Below are positions 55,576 through 64,000 of a stretch of DNA of 64,000 nt, one piece after another. How positions within the stretch are numbered: the first letter of the stretch is position 1; each line of letters opens with the position of its first letter. The stretch lies in the NCBI GenBank assembly GCA_001899255.1, contig MKVX01000018.1:373150-437149 (forward strand). The letters run 5' to 3'. Below the pieces are notes generated by a model. The model was not told the DNA's origin. It was given only the letters and a program-made list of their open reading frames with translations, and made no database searches. The translations under genes and the position numbers were made by a program. The DNA comes from Rhizobiales bacterium 62-47. Its GTDB lineage: Bacteria > Pseudomonadota > Alphaproteobacteria > Rhizobiales > Xanthobacteraceae.

Positions 55576-55730
55576 TCTGACCTTGCGAGCGGGGAAGCCT
55601 TCCAGGAAAGCCCCCCGGTCCGCGTTGGTATTTCCTTACAGTTCTTAACGGTCAATTTCCAAATTTGTGACATTGCTGTGGCACGCGCGGTCGTATGGCG
55701 GTCCGGGCAGTCAAAATTGGAGATTTCGAC

Positions 55731-56195
55731 GTGAAAAGCTGGTTCTCGAAGCCGATGCTACCCCTGCTGGCGGCAACATTCGTGCTTGTCAGCCCGGCGC
55801 TGGCTGGCAATGCGACGAAAGACGAAGCCGTCGCGATGGTGAAGAGCGCGGTGACTTTCATCAAGGCCGAGGGTGCCGAGAAAGCCTATCCCGAGATCAG
55901 CAACAAGACCGGCAAATTCGTCAAGGACGATTTGTACGTCGTGGTCTATCAGCTCGATGGCAAGGTGCTGGCGCACGGCGCCAACCAAAAGTTCGTCGGC
56001 AAGGATTTGATCGATGCTCAGGATGTCGACGGCAAGCTCTACGTGAAGGAGCGCGTGGAACTGGCAGCCAAGCAGCCGTCGTTCTGGCAGGACTACAAGT
56101 TCGTCAATCCGGTGACCAAGAAGGTCGAGCCCAAGCAGATGTATTGCGAAAAGCTCGAGAACACCGCGGTCTGCGCGGGCATCTACAAGCTGTAA
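55731..56195 (+). CDS. secreted single-Cache-domain protein
   Basis: 154 residues from GTG 55731 (GGAGA upstream); starting at the ATG at 55695 would bury the signal peptide behind 12 residues. The signal peptide runs to about residue 27 (LVSPALAG). The mature part is a Cache_2-type sensing fold without anchor: TKDEAVAMVKSAVTFIKAEG, KDDLYVVVYQLDGKVLAHGA and NQKFVGKDLIDAQDVDGKLY. It is followed, 144 bp on, by a chemoreceptor. Free Cache proteins of this kind may act as periplasmic ligand binders for such a receptor. Confidence 0.82.
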   Translation: MKSWFSKPMLPLLAATFVLVSPALAGNATKDEAVAMVKSAVTFIKAEGAEKAYPEISNKTGKFVKDDLYVVVYQLDGKVLAHGANQKFVGKDLIDAQDVDGKLYVKERVELAAKQPSFWQDYKFVNPVTKKVEPKQMYCEKLENTAVCAGIYKL

Positions 56196-56339
56196 TCTTT
56201 TGTCATTGGAAGGTGGGTGCTGCGGCGGCTGGCGGCCTAAACGCAATAGCACTGCTGTCGCCGGATGCGCTTCCTTCCTCATAAAACGCTTCACTGAATG
56301 TGCCCACGCTCAGGAAGTGCCCTTGCCTCAGGATTGACC

Positions 56340-58046
56340 ATGCTGCGTTGGATCAGAAACATCGGAATTTCGTGGAAAGTGCAGGTCGCGCCAGCGTTCC
56401 TGGTTCTGGTCCTGATCGGCCTTGGCGTTTACGCCCTGCAGACGCTTCGCGCCAATCAGGCGAGCGTCGACGCGCTGGTCGCGGGACCAATCCGGCAATC
56501 CGAGTTAGCCGCCGAGCTCAACACGGCAGTATGGACGGCGCACGCCAAGCTTTATCAATTGGCGGCGATTGCCGCCAATGAAAAGGACGACAAGAAAATC
56601 CAGGCAATGGCCAAGGAAGCAGCAGCGGCATCGGCGCGGACGCTGGAGGCATTGAAGGCCGTGGATGCGGTGCAAGCGACGTCCGGCATGAAGGCGGAAG
56701 CCTTCGCCAAGCTCAAGGCGTCGGTCGATGGCTACGTCAAGCAATCTAAGAACGCGATCGAGATGGCCGACGGGGATGCCGGTTCGGCGCTGATGTTCAT
56801 CAAAGGCGCTGAGCGACACTTTGGTGACATTGCCGATTTGACCGATGATCTGATCCTGCGCAGCAGCTCCCGTCGTGATCGTGAAATCGCGCGCGCTGGA
56901 ATGCGGCTCGATCAACAGCAACTCATGCTGTCGATCATTCTGCTGGTCGCGGCGTTCGCCGGAGTCGTGGTCTCGTTCTTTATCGGGCGCAACATTTCAC
57001 GCCCGGTTGTGGCGATGTCCGCAGCCATGCGTGAACTGGCGATCGGCAATTTCGCAGTGCAACTGCCGGGGTTGGATCGGGGCGACGAAGTCGGACAAAT
57101 GGCGCGTGGTGTCGCCGAATTTAAGGTGCAGGCGATCGCCAAGGCCGAGCGTGAATTGGCCGAGCGTGAAAGCAAGAACGGCGAACTTGCGGCGGCGCGT
57201 CGGGCGGAACTGCATAATCTGGCCGATGGCTTCGAGGCTGCGGTCGGCATCATCATCGAGAATGTCGGTTCGGCCTCGCACGAACTGGAAAAGTCGGCGG
57301 TGACGTTGACCAAAACAAGTTCGGCAACGCAAGAACTCAGCAGCATCGTTGCGAGCGCATCGGAAGAGACGTCCGCCAATGTTCAATCGGTGGCCTCGGC
57401 GACCGAGCAAATGGCGGCATCGGTCGGTGAAATCGGCCGTCAGGTGCAGGATTCCAACAAAGTTGCTCGGGAGGCCGTCGAGCAGGCAGAGCGGACCGAT
57501 GCACGAATCACCGAGCTGTCGCTGGCTGCCAATCGTATCGGCGATGTGACCAAGCTGATCACGACCATTGCCGAACAGACAAATCTGCTGGCGCTCAACG
57601 CAACGATCGAGGCCGCGCGGGCCGGCGAGGCGGGTCGCGGCTTTGCCGTCGTTGCGCAGGAGGTCAAGGCTTTGTCGGCGCAAACCGCAAAGGCTACCAG
57701 CGAGATCACCACGCAGATCGACGAGATGCAGACAGCGACGCAGGAATCGGTGATGGCGATCAAGGAGATCAGCGGCACCATCGGCCGCGTTTCGGAAATC
57801 GCATCGATCATTGCTGCCGCTATCGAAGAGCAGGGCGCAGCGACGCATGAGATCGCCCGCAATGTTCAGCAGGCCGCCGTCGGAACGACTCAGGTCGCCT
57901 CCAACATCGGCGCAGTGAGCCGCAGCGCCAGCGATACCGGCTCCGCGTCGTCGCAGGTGCTTTCATCGGCACAGTTGCTGGCCAATGAAAACAAGCGTCT
58001 CAAGGCCGAAATGGTCAAATTCCTGGCTACTGTGCGCGCTGCTTGA
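56340..58046 (+). CDS. methyl-accepting chemotaxis protein
   Basis: 568 residues from the ATG at 56340 (AGGATT upstream). Topology: membrane segment about 16-36, a periplasmic helical region rich in Ala and Lys (four-helix-bundle like, no Cache fold), membrane segment about 196-217 and HAMP to about 270. The signalling domain hairpin tip reads [40 protein letters not shown] (about 409-448). It has no CheB/CheR-binding pentapeptide. No other che genes are near; it must join an unlinked array. Confidence 0.93.
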
Positions 58047-58375
58047 TATCGAATCTGGTCTAGTTATCCGCTGAGCTCTCGATTTTCCGCGAGGCGCCGG
58101 CCCGCGCATTGCGGTTCGTGCGGTTTGTCCCCATGCGCAAGTCCGCCGGTATCTCGGCGTGTCATCTTGCTGACAGCTCATTGCCAAATCGCCTCTGCGA
58201 CGCCAGAGCGCGACGGATAGCGTTGACTTGCCACAATGTTGAGCAATTTTAAGCCCAGCCTACTCCAAGACAATTTGCCATTTGTGCTGTGCGACATGGA
58301 ACAAGTGTCGCATTTCGGAAGTTAATGACGTTCGGGGATTGGCCGGCGACTTTATCAAGACGTGAAGAGGACTCG
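58047..58375. other. 329 bp regulatory gap upstream of hpnP
   Basis: No gene seen. It holds AT-richer DNA after 58200, TTGACT at 58223 with no good -10, and a GGAAC motif described separately. The run of the MCP stop into the gap shows no clear terminator hairpin. Confidence 0.5.
58298..58323 (+). promoter_or_regulatory. EcfG-like general stress promoter of hpnP
   Basis: GGAAC (58298-58302), 17 bp, then AGTT (58320-58323), close to the alphaproteobacterial EcfG consensus GGAAC-N16/17-CGTT with one mismatch. It ends 53 bp before the hpnP ATG. In Rhodopseudomonas palustris hpnP expression is known to depend on EcfG, which makes the match meaningful. Confidence 0.6.
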
Positions 58376-59962
58376 ATGAACCAAATGTCGGTTCGAGGCG
58401 GGCGTCGTATCCTGTGCGTTTTTCCGCGTTACACGTCCTCTTTCGGCACGTTCGAACACGCCTATCCGTTGACCGACGGCGTGCAGGCTTTCATGCCGCC
58501 GCAAGGCTTGTTGTTGATCGCTGCTTATCTCCCGGCGAACTGGGAGGTGCGGTTCATCGACGAAAACATCCGCGCTGTCACGACAGAAGAATTCGAATGG
58601 GCGGAAGCCGTTCTGGTGAGCGGCATGCATATTCAGCGACAGCAGATGAATGACATCTGCCATCGTGCCCACGCGTTCGATCTCGCGGTTGCTATCGGCG
58701 GTCCTTCAGTCAGTGCCTGTCCGGATTATTATCCCTCGTTTGACTATCTGCATGTCGGCGAACTCGGCGATGCCACCGACGAATTGATCGAGCGGCTGGC
58801 GCGCGATCCCTCGCGCCCGGAGCGGCAGGTCGTGCTCAAGACGGTTGACCGTCTCGATATGACCGAATTTCCGATCCCGGCTTACGAACTGGCGGACATT
58901 CCGCGCTACTTCCTTGGCAGCATCCAATATTCGAGCGGTTGCCCTTACCAATGCGAGTTTTGCGATATCCCGGGGCTCTATGGCCGCAATCCGCGGCTCA
59001 AGTCGCCGGAGCAGATCACGCGCGAGCTCGACATGCTTCTCGCCTGCGGAATTAACGGGTCGGTCTATTTCGTCGACGATAATTTCATCGGCAATCGTAA
59101 GGCGACACTCGAATTGCTGCCACATCTGATCGAATGGCAGCAAAGAACCGGCTTCGTTCTGCGCTTCTCGTGTGAAGCTACGCTCAACATCGCCAAGCGG
59201 CCGGAAATCCTGTCGCAAATGCGCGAAGCTTATTTCGCGACGATCTTCTGCGGAATCGAAACGCCGGACCCGGTGGCGCTCAAGGCGATGCACAAGGACC
59301 ACAACATGATGGTCCCGATCATGGAGGCTATCCAAACTCTCAACAGTTTCGGCATGGAGGTGGTGTCGGGCATTATCCTCGGGTTGGATACCGACAAGCC
59401 GGAGACGGGCGCGCATCTGCTCGAATTCATAGACCGGTCGCAGATACCGCTTTTGACGATCAATCTGCTGCAGGCACTGCCGCGCACGCCTTTATGGGAT
59501 CGCCTGCAGCGCGAGAACCGCTTGATCGAGGATGATAATAGGGATTCGAATGTCGATTTCCGGCTGCCCTATGAGCATGTCGTCACGACATGGCGCAACT
59601 GTATGGGCAGCGCCTATCTACCGGGCAAATTGCTGGAGCGGTTCGAATACCAGATCCGCAATACCTATCCGCATCGGCTTCGTCCACCGTTGTCACGCGC
59701 TCGGCTGTCCGCGAAGAACATCAAGCTCGGGCTGACGATGCTGCGTAACATCTTCTGGAAGGTCGGCGTGCTCGGGGATTACAAGCTGGACTTCTGGAAG
59801 TTCGCGCTGCGCCGCCTGGCACGGGGTGAGATCGAATATCTCATCAGTTCGATCATGGTCGCCCACCATTTGATCGTTTTCGCGCGCAGCGCATCACGAG
59901 GGCAGACCAACGCCTCGTACTACTCGCTGAAGCTGCAGGAGTCGTCGGTTCCCGCCGAATAA
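58376..59962 (+). CDS. hpnP: hopanoid C-2 methylase (B12-binding radical SAM)
   Basis: Adds a methyl group at C-2 of hopanoids, using cobalamin and S-adenosylmethionine. 528 residues. The N-terminal B12-binding domain starts RRILCVFPRYTSSFGTFEHA and continues QAFMPPQGLLLIAAYLP. The radical SAM cluster is CPYQCEFC with Cys189, 193 and 196, followed by DIPGLYGRNPRLKS, as in HpnP. GAAGAGG precedes the ATG at 58376. The upstream open frame to 58289 is not real. An exporter-like RND gene follows in the same direction. Its sequence agrees with my memory of the Rhodopseudomonas HpnP family; other B12 radical SAM methylases are the alternative. Confidence 0.88.
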   Translation: MNQMSVRGGRRILCVFPRYTSSFGTFEHAYPLTDGVQAFMPPQGLLLIAAYLPANWEVRFIDENIRAVTTEEFEWAEAVLVSGMHIQRQQMNDICHRAHAFDLAVAIGGPSVSACPDYYPSFDYLHVGELGDATDELIERLARDPSRPERQVVLKTVDRLDMTEFPIPAYELADIPRYFLGSIQYSSGCPYQCEFCDIPGLYGRNPRLKSPEQITRELDMLLACGINGSVYFVDDNFIGNRKATLELLPHLIEWQQRTGFVLRFSCEATLNIAKRPEILSQMREAYFATIFCGIETPDPVALKAMHKDHNMMVPIMEAIQTLNSFGMEVVSGIILGLDTDKPETGAHLLEFIDRSQIPLLTINLLQALPRTPLWDRLQRENRLIEDDNRDSNVDFRLPYEHVVTTWRNCMGSAYLPGKLLERFEYQIRNTYPHRLRPPLSRARLSAKNIKLGLTMLRNIFWKVGVLGDYKLDFWKFALRRLARGEIEYLISSIMVAHHLIVFARSASRGQTNASYYSLKLQESSVPAE

Positions 59963-60103
59963 GCTAACCTGCGGTCATCCATCTGAGTCTAGGCCTGCAG
60001 GTGGGGCCGATACGGGATTTTCGTGACAAAGGTTGCTGGCTGACGGTGTCCATTTCGGACGGCCAGCTTGCGAGTTTGTACAGACCTGCTAAACCTCAGC
60101 GCC

Positions 60104-60122
60104 GAAATTATTACATAATTTC
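60104..60122. promoter_or_regulatory. AT-rich palindrome upstream of the MMPL exporter gene
   Basis: GAAATTAT-TAC-ATAATTTC is a perfect 8 bp dyad with a three-base centre, 68 bp upstream of the exporter ATG in the 228 bp gap after hpnP. It may be an operator or a hairpin. Its AT content stands out from the surroundings. Confidence 0.4.
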
Positions 60123-60190
60123 AATGACTCGTGCTGACGTGTTCGACGGATCGAGGCCGTTGGCCGTCCTAGCCTGGAACCGGATGCGGC

Positions 60191-62560
60191 ATGCAAGATT
60201 TGCACGGAAGCGATATCAACGCGAACAGGTCCGGACAGCGTCTGCCCAGCATTGCCTTCGGTCTGGAGCGGATCGGTTTGATCGCGATCCGCGCGCCGAT
60301 CCTGTCGTGCCTCATCCTGCTGGCCCTCTGCATTGGGGCCGGATTCGGTATCCAGCGCATCAAGATCGACGATTCACTGAGCCAACTGTTTCGCTCCGAT
60401 ACGCCGGAATACCGGCAGTACGAGGAGGTGACCAAGCGCTTCCCCTCGACCGAATTCGACGTACTGGTTGTCGTTGAAGGCAAGACGCTACTCGAGCGGC
60501 AAAATCTCGAGAAGCTGCGCGACATGGTCACGGACCTGCAGCTCGTCGATGGCACGCGCGGTTTGATTTCGCTGTTCTCCGCCCGGCAGGCGCCCGAAGC
60601 CGGCAAGCTGCCCGCGGCGCTTTTTCCGTCGGATCTGCCGAAGGGCGCGGACTACGACAAGTTCATCGAGACGGTGAAAGCCAACGAGATCATACGCGGC
60701 AAATTGCTGTCGAACGACGGTACGCTCGCGCTCATCGTGCTGGCACTTGATCCCGAGGTGGTTCGCAACAACAGCCTCAACAAGACCGTCACGGAAATCC
60801 GCAAGGTCATGAATGATGACCTTGAGGGGACAGGGTTGTCGAAAGAGCTCTCCGGCGTGCCGGTCATGCAGCTTGAAATCCGTAACGCGGTGGAGCGCGA
60901 CGGGCTGATCTACAACATCGCGGGAATCCTGGCGGGCTGCCTGATCGCCATCGTGTTCTTTCGCAAGGTCTCGTTCATGGTCGTGGCGGCGTTTCCGCCG
61001 CTACTCGCCATCCTGCTGGCGTTGGGGGCCTTGGGTTGGGCCGGATTCAGCCTCAACATGTTCCTCAACGTCATGACGCCGCTGATTATGGTCATCAGCT
61101 TCTCGGATTCCATGCAGCTGACGTTCGCGGCGCGAGATCGGCTGATCGCGGGGGAGGATAAGTATTCGGCATTTCGTAATGCCGTGCTGGTGGTTGGTCC
61201 GGCCTGTGTCCTGACTCATGCGACAGCGGGTATTTCCTTCCTCGCCCTGCAATTCTCCGATTCGGACCTGATTCGAACCTTCGGTGAGGCGGGATTTGCC
61301 GCCACCGTCATCGCCTTGCTCGCGGTGCTGTCGCTGGTACCGGTGTTCGGTGTGCTGCTGGTTCGCAACGAGAAGGTCTTCGCCGCGAAATTCAAGTCCG
61401 CCGACGCCGGCGTCAATGCGCTGCGCAGTTTCTGCATGTGGATTGCCGTGCGCATGGTGAGCCGGCCGGGTTTGTTCAGCCTCCTCGCAGTGGTCGTCGT
61501 TGGCGGCTTGGCTGTGATCTACGCCAATCTCGAGCCGCGCTATCGTCTCGCCGATCAGGTTCCGGACAAGCAGCAGGCAGTAGCCGCGAGCGGTCGCCTC
61601 GATGCCAAGCTGACGGGCGCGAATCCGATCGATATCCTGATCGAATTCCCCAAGGGACAGTCGCTCTACTCACCGGAAACGCTGAGCACCATCGCCCAGG
61701 TCCACGAGCAGGTCGAGAAGCAGGCGGGTGTGGGCAACGTCTGGTCGCTGGAGACCTTGCGGCGTTGGCTGCAGGAGAAAGTGGGCAAGTCCGACGTCGC
61801 GACGCTTAAGGAGTATGTGGATTTGCTTCCGAAGCATCTGGTGCGACGTTTTATTTCGGCCGATGAAGATGCTGTCGTCGTGTCTGGGCGCGTTCCGGAT
61901 AAGGATTCCAGCCAGATTCTGCCCGTGGTGCAGAAGCTCGATAGCGTGTTGAACGCGGTCCGGCAGGCGCATCCCGGATATGAAATCGCTGTAACCGGTC
62001 TATCGGCAATCGCTGCGCGCAACAGTGCCAGCATGATCGAGAAGCTCAATCACGGATTGACCATCGAGTTCGCATTGGTGGCGATCTTCATCGGTCTCGC
62101 ATTCCGGTCTGTGGTGGTGATGTTCGCTTGTATCTTGCCCGGCATTTTCCCGGTGGTGCTGTCGGGCACGGTGCTATGGGCGCTCGGGGAGGGGTTGCAA
62201 TTCGCCAGCGTCGTGGCGCTCACCGTCTCGTTCGGGCTGGGGTTGAGTGCGACCATTCACTTCCTCAACCGTCTGCGGCTGGAGGGCAAAGCGGGCGAGG
62301 ATCCCGCCATCGCGGTCGAGCGTGCCACGGTGCTGGTCGGGCCGGCGCTGATTCTGACGACGGTGGTGCTGGCCTGCGGGCTGGTGGTGACAGTGTTCTC
62401 GGATCTGCCGTCGCTGCGCTTGTTCGGCTGGCTCAGCGCATTTGCCATGGTCGCGGCGCTGATCGCGGATCTGTTTATCCTCCGCCCAACGGCGATGTAC
62501 CTGATCTACCTGTCGCAACGATTGCGTGGCGCAACGCGCGAACCAAAACCGGCCGAATAA
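60191..62560 (+). CDS. MMPL/RND-family exporter, HpnN-like
   Basis: 789 residues with two MMPL repeats, each a periplasmic loop followed by about five or six membrane segments (first repeat about 36-395, second about 425-780). A membrane segment lies near residue 35-53. FRSDTPEYRQYEEVTKRFPS and RFISADEDAVVVSGRVPDKD are in the periplasmic parts. HpnN, which moves hopanoids to the outer membrane, is the same family but a little longer. Position right after hpnP suggests movement of methylated hopanoids or related lipids; this is inference. Confidence 0.83.
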   Translation: MQDLHGSDINANRSGQRLPSIAFGLERIGLIAIRAPILSCLILLALCIGAGFGIQRIKIDDSLSQLFRSDTPEYRQYEEVTKRFPSTEFDVLVVVEGKTLLERQNLEKLRDMVTDLQLVDGTRGLISLFSARQAPEAGKLPAALFPSDLPKGADYDKFIETVKANEIIRGKLLSNDGTLALIVLALDPEVVRNNSLNKTVTEIRKVMNDDLEGTGLSKELSGVPVMQLEIRNAVERDGLIYNIAGILAGCLIAIVFFRKVSFMVVAAFPPLLAILLALGALGWAGFSLNMFLNVMTPLIMVISFSDSMQLTFAARDRLIAGEDKYSAFRNAVLVVGPACVLTHATAGISFLALQFSDSDLIRTFGEAGFAATVIALLAVLSLVPVFGVLLVRNEKVFAAKFKSADAGVNALRSFCMWIAVRMVSRPGLFSLLAVVVVGGLAVIYANLEPRYRLADQVPDKQQAVAASGRLDAKLTGANPIDILIEFPKGQSLYSPETLSTIAQVHEQVEKQAGVGNVWSLETLRRWLQEKVGKSDVATLKEYVDLLPKHLVRRFISADEDAVVVSGRVPDKDSSQILPVVQKLDSVLNAVRQAHPGYEIAVTGLSAIAARNSASMIEKLNHGLTIEFALVAIFIGLAFRSVVVMFACILPGIFPVVLSGTVLWALGEGLQFASVVALTVSFGLGLSATIHFLNRLRLEGKAGEDPAIAVERATVLVGPALILTTVVLACGLVVTVFSDLPSLRLFGWLSAFAMVAALIADLFILRPTAMYLIYLSQRLRGATREPKPAE

Positions 62561-62613
62561 CGAAATTGGCCCGATCCGCCGGGCCAGTTTGTGTTCGATG
62601 CGTTGTTGGCAGA

Positions 62614-63114
62614 TCAGCCTCTGACGAGCGTGATCGACACGCCCCGGATCTCGCCCTTGGAGTTGATCGATACCGACTGCCTGTTGCCACGCGTGGTCAC
62701 GGTGATGTTGGCGGCGAAGCCCGAGGCTTCAACGAAGACATCGATCTGACCGTCGCTGGCGCGGCCGCGAAGATCACCGAAGATGTTGCGGCTCGCTTCA
62801 CTCCAGGTTCCCGATACCGTTCCCTGAGTGCTGATGACGTCGCTGTTGAGGTCGAACTTGTAGCTATCGCTGGCGCAGCGCAGGCTCTGCTGCAGGCCCT
62901 GTCCGGTGCCGTTGACCTTGTAATTGGCTTTGCAACGGATCCGCTCTGTTGACCCGTCCGAAAGCGAGACCGTACCTGTCCCGGACCATGCGCCGTTGAA
63001 ACTGGCAAACGGGCCGGTTTGCGCTTGCCCTGCCGACGCAGACAACAGCAGCGCCGCCCCGACGCCAGCAGCCTTGATCATCTGCGAGGATATCCCAAAT
63101 CCAAACGACTTCAT
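62614..63114 (-). CDS. secreted protein of unknown function
   Basis: 166 residues. A signal peptide of about 31 residues ends ASAGQAQ. The mature part is rich in Ser, Gly and Thr, with FNGAWSGTGTVSLSDGSTER, IRCKANYKVNGTGQGLQQSL and GFAANITVTTRG, suggesting a small beta-barrel or lipocalin-like fold. The only two Cys flank IRCKAN and LRCASD and could form a disulfide. ATG 63114 follows AGGAAG. It is convergent with the exporter gene (53 bp gap). No function can be assigned. Confidence 0.8.
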   Translation of the reverse strand: MKSFGFGISSQMIKAAGVGAALLLSASAGQAQTGPFASFNGAWSGTGTVSLSDGSTERIRCKANYKVNGTGQGLQQSLRCASDSYKFDLNSDVISTQGTVSGTWSEASRNIFGDLRGRASDGQIDVFVEASGFAANITVTTRGNRQSVSINSKGEIRGVSITLVRG

Positions 63115-63719
63115 GTTCGAGCTTCCTAAATTGATCTGGAGAGGAAGATAGGTACGGTCGCACCCGGATCTTAGTGCTGCGCCTGGCGCCAGTGGTTCAA
63201 TTATCACACATAGTTGCAGCTAGGCATGCCAACGGTGCCACGGTCGTAGTGTTGTTCGGCGATGTCGAATCTCGTTCCATTCCGCATTCATCATCTATCA
63301 TAACAACCCAAATCACCGAGAGTTCGCAGGTTATGTTCAGGGCTGTGAGAAATGCAAACCCTCCTTGGTCCGGTTATAAGAATGGCCCCAAAATAATGCA
63401 TTCGAATCAAAACGTTACGATATCTAGCTCGAATCTGGTAGGCTGACTTGGAATCAGTCCCTGATCGCCGCCGCAAAATCGACTGCATTTGCTGGCGTTG
63501 ATCGAACGCGCAATCAACGGCCTTTTCGGCAATGAAGTCGGGAACCGCCGCGGAGGAACGTCTGTTGATGACGCGCGTTGGGCTGAGCAAGTTTGCTGTT
63601 CCTTTCTTCGGCAAGTAGGTCTTCGCTTGCCCTTTCCCAACGCTTACGAAGGTTAAGAGACCTTGGATCTGCTGTGTCATCCAGGATCGTCAATTTTGTT
63701 GTCAGAACGAAGGACTACC
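63115..63719. other. 605 bp gap without a supportable gene
   Basis: Separates the two small divergent secreted-protein genes. Frames on both strands are short, without good ribosome-binding sites and with neighbour-unlike composition. The centre (63280-63450) is clearly AT-richer than the rest. A near-consensus EcfG promoter lies at 63555-63579. I see nothing else. Confidence 0.5.
63555..63579 (+). promoter_or_regulatory. EcfG-consensus promoter upstream of the small Cys-repeat protein gene
   Basis: GGAAC (63555-63559), 16 bp, CGTT (63576-63579): a perfect match to the general-stress sigma factor consensus. An overlapping GGAAC at 63541 with GTT at 63564 is a second, weaker match. The start codon is 141 bp downstream, leaving a leader of about 130 bases. 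Confidence 0.5.
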
Positions 63720-63953
63720 ATGCCCAAATTTTTCGTATTGTTCGCCCTGTTGATGTTCGGCTCGACTGCCGCAATGGCACAGGCACAGCACAGCGGAACT
63801 GATGCAGAACAGAAGGCCTGTTCTCGCGATGTGACGCGGCATTGCCGCAAGCTGATGGACCAGGGTGATTTTGCTATTTTGGCATGCTTGCAGCAGCATC
63901 GGGCGCAGTTGTCCAAGGCTTGCGCGCAGGTGCTCAACAATCACGGCCAGTGA
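63720..63953 (+). CDS. small secreted cysteine-rich repeat protein
   Basis: 77 residues. The signal peptide (about 1-20) ends in AMAQA. The mature part has four Cys (34, 42, 56, 68) with spacing like one cysteine-rich (GLG1-type) repeat: CSRDVTRHC, ACLQQHRAQLSKAC. Two disulfides are likely. AAGGACTACC precedes the ATG at 63720. Small proteins of this kind are frequent in Bradyrhizobium relatives; function unknown. A likely stress promoter lies upstream. Confidence 0.8.
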   Translation: MPKFFVLFALLMFGSTAAMAQAQHSGTDAEQKACSRDVTRHCRKLMDQGDFAILACLQQHRAQLSKACAQVLNNHGQ

Positions 63954-64000
63954 CGGTGACCGGGTCGGTCCGGCGTCCTTCGGGCCGGGAAATCTGCTGA

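Follow-up and report, generated by a model that had tools for sequence, protein, structure and literature searches.

The window analysed here is a stretch of 64,000 nucleotides of Rhizobiales bacterium 62-47 (contig MKVX01000018.1; C18:373150-437149 of the 4.9-Mb genome), in which hpnP, the gene for the hopanoid C-2 methylase, is followed by the gene for an RND/MMPL exporter, and this in turn by a convergent gene for a small secreted barrel protein (SP). We tentatively read the exporter and SP as a two-part lipid-trafficking module whose likeliest cargo in the family of this bacterium, the Xanthobacteraceae, would be hopanoids or lipids made together with them, regardless of C-2 methylation. 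The features of the locus are the following:

58376-59962, + strand: hpnP, hopanoid C-2 methylase, 528 amino acids (B12-binding, radical SAM and DUF4070 domains)
60191-62560, + strand: RND/MMPL exporter, 789 amino acids, HAE3-like, distinct from HpnN (domain and profile scores, predicted fold)
62614-63114, - strand: SP, small secreted barrel protein, 166 amino acids, convergent with the exporter (co-occurrence, predicted barrel)
60104-60122, strand not applicable: perfect palindrome GAAATTAT-TAC-ATAATTTC between hpnP and the exporter, lacking conservation in the relatives checked
58298-58323, + strand: EcfG-type promoter-like site GGAAC-N17-AGTT upstream of hpnP (motif scan)

One support for this reading is the constancy of the exporter-SP pair. 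SP lies convergent with the exporter within 1.5 kb at 100 of 119 exporter loci; 15 have no SP there, and at the remaining 4 the contig ends too early. In the survey of 198 genomes of the family, where fragment matches were scored as present, a search profile built from 63 SP sequences found SP in 93 of 93 exporter-positive vs 7 of 105 exporter-negative genomes. The survey outside the family drew on 397 genomes of the order, of which 378 is an upper bound for those outside, as 19 genomes listed as family members were the only ones subtracted; it took exporters at 48% identity or above and SHC matches at E 1e-100. There, SP is present in 50 of 50 exporter-positive vs 4 of 30 exporter-negative genomes, the latter picked by hand and 20 of them with SHC. 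The adjacency is kept while the orientation varies, since in other families SP stands on the same strand, either upstream (L151, L152) or downstream (L179, L182, L184, L185). At 52 exporter loci that are not close to hpnP, no neighbour but SP is widely shared (27 loci; 8 for the next gene cluster). Among 72 exporter-family places outside the family, SP lies within 1 kb at 9 of the 10 with at least 60% identity and at 14 of the 22 paralogues below 48%. These 14 paralogues have an SP gene of their own, just downstream on the same strand (e.g., G396:C12:102918-105562).

Inspection by eye shows a signal peptide in SP, and two of its cysteines, C61 and C80, are invariant. Its AlphaFold2 (AF2) model is a ten-stranded barrel with a mean pLDDT of 84.9; from residue 41 onward the block means exceed 90. 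The closest shape is nitrobindin (Foldseek E 9e-5; Z 17.0, root mean square deviation 2.7, 134 aligned residues, 9% identity), followed, among others, by fatty-acid and bile-acid binding proteins (Z 12-13). SP thus shares the ten-stranded barrel with nitrobindin, the C-terminal domain of THAP4 and the FABP-like calycins, but differs from nitrobindin in being secreted, in its two invariant cysteines and in having no fitting Pfam family. The best Pfam hit across the 63 members scanned had an E of 0.019, the nitrobindin-like family PF08768 was given by one of the 63 only (E 0.031), and no sequence relative of SP was found in the PDB.

The exporter had been described in the original prediction as HpnN-type, of which the RND/MMPL part stands and the HpnN part does not. 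Its MMPL domain scores 117.6 bits on PF03176 (gathering cut-off 20.5), which places it among the MMPL-type members of the RND superfamily, while on the two HpnN models it stays far below the cut-off (61.6 of 751.85 bits on TIGR03480, 28.1 of 1100 on NF052374). The top NCBIfam match, HAE3 (TIGR00921), reaches 169.9 bits and remains under its cut-off of 351.9; by these scores the protein is HAE3-like and would work like an HAE3 pump, not being a full HAE3 member. The true HpnN of this genome (1114.7 bits on TIGR03480) is encoded at C18:445534-448092, within the main hpn cluster some 10 kb further downstream, and its best BLASTP segment with the exporter has 26% identity (E 6e-4). The exporter is therefore a second RND exporter besides HpnN, just as had been predicted. 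In its AF2 model (pLDDT 86.3, pTM 0.82), the nearest Foldseek structures are MmpL4, MmpL5 and MmpL3, then HpnN and NPC1, and the best solved relatives by profile search are the HpnN structures 5khn (E 6e-14) and 6wu0. The likeness to MmpL and HpnN comes from Foldseek and the profile search, neither of which decides the cargo. Two residues in membrane helices, D306 and H690, are the same in all 66 sequences compared and may take part in proton coupling.

On this basis we propose that a proton-driven exporter of the MMPL/HAE3 kind would lift a hydrophobic or amphiphilic lipid from the inner membrane into its own periplasmic domain, and that secreted SP would then take up the lipid in the periplasm and carry it onward. 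The module probably predates its position beside hpnP and would have become attached to the hopanoid gene cluster within the family. The transport direction, the proton coupling, the hand-over to SP and the cargo are the parts of this model that we infer, and the folds are predicted.

The relation to hopanoids is seen both in gene order and in co-occurrence. It had been predicted that hpnP and the exporter follow each other in the same direction across a 228-bp gap with a palindrome, and all of this is present, the gap spanning 59963-60190. The main hpn cluster lies past the window end, in the order hpnC, hpnD, hpnE, shc, hpnG, hpnH, ispH, hpnN, where names other than shc and hpnN were assigned by reading of the sequences. 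Its first gene, hpnC, starts 213 bp outside the window, which puts hpnP and the exporter at the border of this cluster. Of the 198 family genomes, 93 have the exporter, 98 HpnP, 123 SHC and 124 HpnN. The exporter and SHC occur together in 85 genomes, the exporter only in 8, SHC only in 38 and neither in 67. With each genus counted once, from sets assembled by hand out of the exporter, HpnP and SHC match lists, the corresponding table is 19/4/10/14 (odds ratio 6.65, p = 0.006). In 53 of the 93 genomes with the exporter, representing nine genera, hpnP is found on the same strand no more than 1.5 kb away, which bears out a conserved adjacency; the distance from the exporter to SHC is at most 11 kb in 51 of the 93. 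Six of these 51 have no hpnP nearby and belong to genus g12, where the exporter is inside the hpn cluster and hpnP is elsewhere or absent; the order in L087, L092 and L093 is shc-exporter-SP-hpnH-hpnN. As the exporter-SP module is attached to the hopanoid gene cluster in this family, hopanoids or lipids made with them are its likeliest cargo.

The exporter tree was built by a quick method from 71 of 168 intact exporters and one HpnN, whose branch is very long. The sampled exporters linked to hpnP form one branch (13 rows, support 85) that is nested among exporters unlinked to hpnP. The label for exporters near hpn genes without hpnP requires four changes on this tree, two of them forced by well-supported branches, so linkage to hopanoid genes was either gained more than once or lost several times.

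Other explanations have to be weighed against a module for hopanoids or co-made lipids. The original prediction saw in the exporter a partner of hpnP selective for 2-methylhopanoids and separately controlled through the palindrome. In its favour, hpnP adjacency is kept even in G045 and G075, where hpnP and the exporter share a contig while SHC and HpnN sit on other contigs, and in the pooled SHC-positive genomes the exporter and HpnP are associated (75 with both, 10 with the exporter only, 21 with HpnP only, 17 with neither; odds ratio 6.1, p = 1e-4), pooled counts being inflated by related genomes. The co-occurrence expected between the exporter and hpnP thus appears in the pooled genomes but vanishes across the 29 SHC-positive genera, each counted once (14/5/7/3, odds ratio 1.2, p = 1). 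Over all 198 genomes, 77 have both, 16 of the 93 carriers lack HpnP, 21 have HpnP without the exporter, and 84 have neither. The genus-level table, together with genus g12 and the nesting of the linked copies in the exporter tree, rules out methyl selectivity as the favoured reading; in many relatives eutC moreover stands between hpnP and the exporter, and the palindrome is not conserved. We therefore regard this explanation as highly improbable. Another proposal, that the exporter is a second exporter of all hopanoids or of a non-methylated subset (short ones, tetrahymanol, adenosylhopane) and of nothing else in the family, draws on its position between shc and hpnN in g12 and on the co-occurrence with SHC, yet it is improbable as well. 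Deletion of hpnN in R. palustris TIE-1 reportedly leaves the outer membrane without hopanoids (PMC4337730), and if TIE-1 has the exporter, as R. palustris 2.1.18 (L055) and R. pseudopalustris (L077) do, the exporter cannot replace HpnN. HpnN and SHC coincide in 122 of the 198 genomes, with three having one of the two only, so the exporter is no stand-in for HpnN; 7 of the 74 HpnN-negative family genomes have the exporter.

Several results weigh against the lipid-trafficking module itself, or against hopanoids as its cargo. Outside the family, 37 of the 50 exporter-positive genomes have no SHC match and 13 have one, which excludes hopanoids as the general cargo of the exporter. Within the family, six exporter-positive genomes (G003, G014, G047, G091, G109, G175) lack SHC and HpnN, and two of these, G003 and G014, are 98-99% complete with the exporter intact, which also speaks against an exporter of hopanoids and nothing else. 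The exporter is thus not restricted to hopanoid makers: in the family it is far from equally distributed (85 of 123 SHC-positive vs 8 of 75 SHC-negative genomes), but the carriers outside it are mostly without SHC. An equal occurrence in genomes without hopanoids had been named as refuting the original prediction, and on this the result is split. None of 40 exporters at 48-59% identity has SP within 1 kb, so the two genes are not always neighbours, and the SP of such genomes may work with the paralogues. Barrels of the SP shape include haem binders and enzymes, nitrobindin itself being a haem protein. By VIA-align, AcrB-type pumps rank first for the exporter (Z 41-44), and a single MmpL chain, 9u4t, reaches 41.6; the predicted fold by itself hence cannot tell lipid from drug cargo. 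It is possible, although we lean against it, that the module moves another envelope lipid or expels toxic hydrophobic compounds, as AmeD does with monoterpenes, and that its place in the hopanoid cluster is incidental. The carriers without SHC inside and outside the family agree with this, as does SP being the sole widely shared neighbour at the unlinked loci. AmeD is an HAE3 pump that has partners in the periplasm and increases tolerance to monoterpenes (PMC6394551), and HpnN is present in 122 of 123 SHC-positive genomes, which means that hopanoid export is already covered. The exporter nevertheless follows SHC within the family (85 of 93 carriers, and at genus level), and it lies near SHC in at least two arrangements, which is why we prefer a module whose cargo in this family is hopanoids or lipids made with them.

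Comparison with described systems places the pair beside several lipid transporters. With HpnN the exporter shares the RND fold, the best solved profile relatives and the gene cluster; it differs in its scores on the HpnN model TIGR03480, in being accompanied by SP, in coexisting with a true HpnN and in its spread, HpnN all but coinciding with SHC in the family. MmpL4 and MmpL5 are the closest folds by Foldseek (9gi0, E 2e-25, TM 0.72), although the identity is 13-16% among the matches listed. MmpS4 and MmpS5 are small, membrane-anchored periplasmic partners encoded with the RND lipid transporter MmpL, whereas SP combines a signal peptide with a calycin-like barrel. AmeD of Castellaniella defragrans, as described in PMC6394551, is an HAE3-type RND pump of 787 amino acids encoded with periplasmic proteins and terpene genes; by that description its partners are an outer-membrane protein, a LolA-type protein and AmeC, while the partner of our exporter is a barrel of nitrobindin shape. 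The BstA/BstB/BstC system of Methylococcus capsulatus similarly combines an MMPL-family inner-membrane protein with soluble lipid binders beside sterol synthesis genes (PMC10942540). BstA is likened here by description, and BstB belongs to the phosphonate-binding-protein family where SP is a barrel.

How hopanoids cross the periplasm is an open question that the exporter-SP pair makes directly testable in Rhodopseudomonas or Bradyrhizobium, for which gene deletion and the analysis of membrane lipids are established, as here a pump and a protein shaped like a lipid binder are inseparable in 93 genomes and stand in hopanoid clusters in two arrangements. In the literature examined, HpnN is the hopanoid transporter with experimental support, no soluble carrier for it is established, and for HpnM a role in transport is given as no more than a possibility (PMC12583986). 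We found no published description of the exporter or of its pairing with SP, a weak negative as the literature searched covers few subscription journals. A broader proposal, which we consider rather unlikely as a whole, is that many Hyphomicrobiales have an undescribed conduit of an RND/MMPL pump and a secreted calycin-type barrel shuttle, serving in the Bradyrhizobium-Rhodopseudomonas lineage as a second hopanoid route beside HpnN. The locus also illustrates that one neighbouring gene is a poor guide to cargo specificity.

The hpnP product has the B12-binding domain, a radical SAM domain with the CX3CX2C motif (CPYQCEFC) and DUF4070, as expected of HpnP. It is 74% identical to HpnP of R. palustris 2.1.18 and 73% to that of R. 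pseudopalustris. HpnP matches in the 198 genomes fall mainly into two groups, at 53-100% and at 41% identity or less, a split that fits the published separation of HpnP from other radical SAM proteins (PMC12583986). HpnP was accordingly counted as present at 53% identity or above, matches at 41% or below were excluded as other radical SAM proteins, and second fragments of split matches were merged with the first.

The palindrome in the hpnP-exporter gap, a perfect 8+3+8 inverted repeat, had been taken as a sign of separate control of the exporter. The site is real, but as an operator it was rejected, being missing upstream of the exporter in all 11 relatives checked, including the 93% identical L007. 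In a shuffling analysis 4 of 100 shuffles matched at three mismatches or fewer, but as the site had already been seen by then, this does not test it fairly. Scans for promoter and terminator consensus sequences stayed at chance level. The promoter-like signal that was seen belongs to hpnP: the site at 58298 resembles those recognised by the stress sigma factor EcfG, differing from the consensus at one base, and it is also present in five close relatives (L007-L011). The pattern GGAAC-N16/17-NGTT (N not G) occurs upstream of hpnP at 18 of 82 loci vs 0.45% of random 250-bp stretches, and upstream of the exporter at 0 of 117 loci. In R. palustris, HpnP reportedly increases through a stress pathway (Kulkarni 2013, as cited in PMC4337730).

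Some individual loci are of interest in their own right. In L111:1652-6426 (G047), a tandem pair of exporters with 74% and 67% identity to that of the window is followed by SP. In G091 (L114), a 99% complete genome with no SHC or HpnN, the exporter is broken over two frames. At L121:13157-13418 (G089), shc is missing between hpnE and hpnG, with hpnP, the exporter, SP and hpnN retained; the sole SHC-family match in G089 and G189 is weaker and lies elsewhere (640-642 bits), 400 kb away in G089.

The order eutB-hpnP-eutC-exporter is frequent in relatives from Bradyrhizobium, Tardiphaga and Rhodopseudomonas, and hpnP stands between eutB and eutC in Bradyrhizobium-type relatives (L015:1600-5775, L012, L126 and others). 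The two genes, named by reading of the sequences, encode the subunits of the B12-dependent ethanolamine ammonia-lyase, and cobalamin is used by that enzyme and by HpnP. The stretch 56000-64000 gave no Rfam match, and the window contains no tRNA. Upstream of hpnP, a separate single-Cache protein (55695-56195) directly precedes a HAMP-MCP chemotaxis receptor (56298-58046), and several relatives likewise have an MCP gene ahead of hpnP or eutB.

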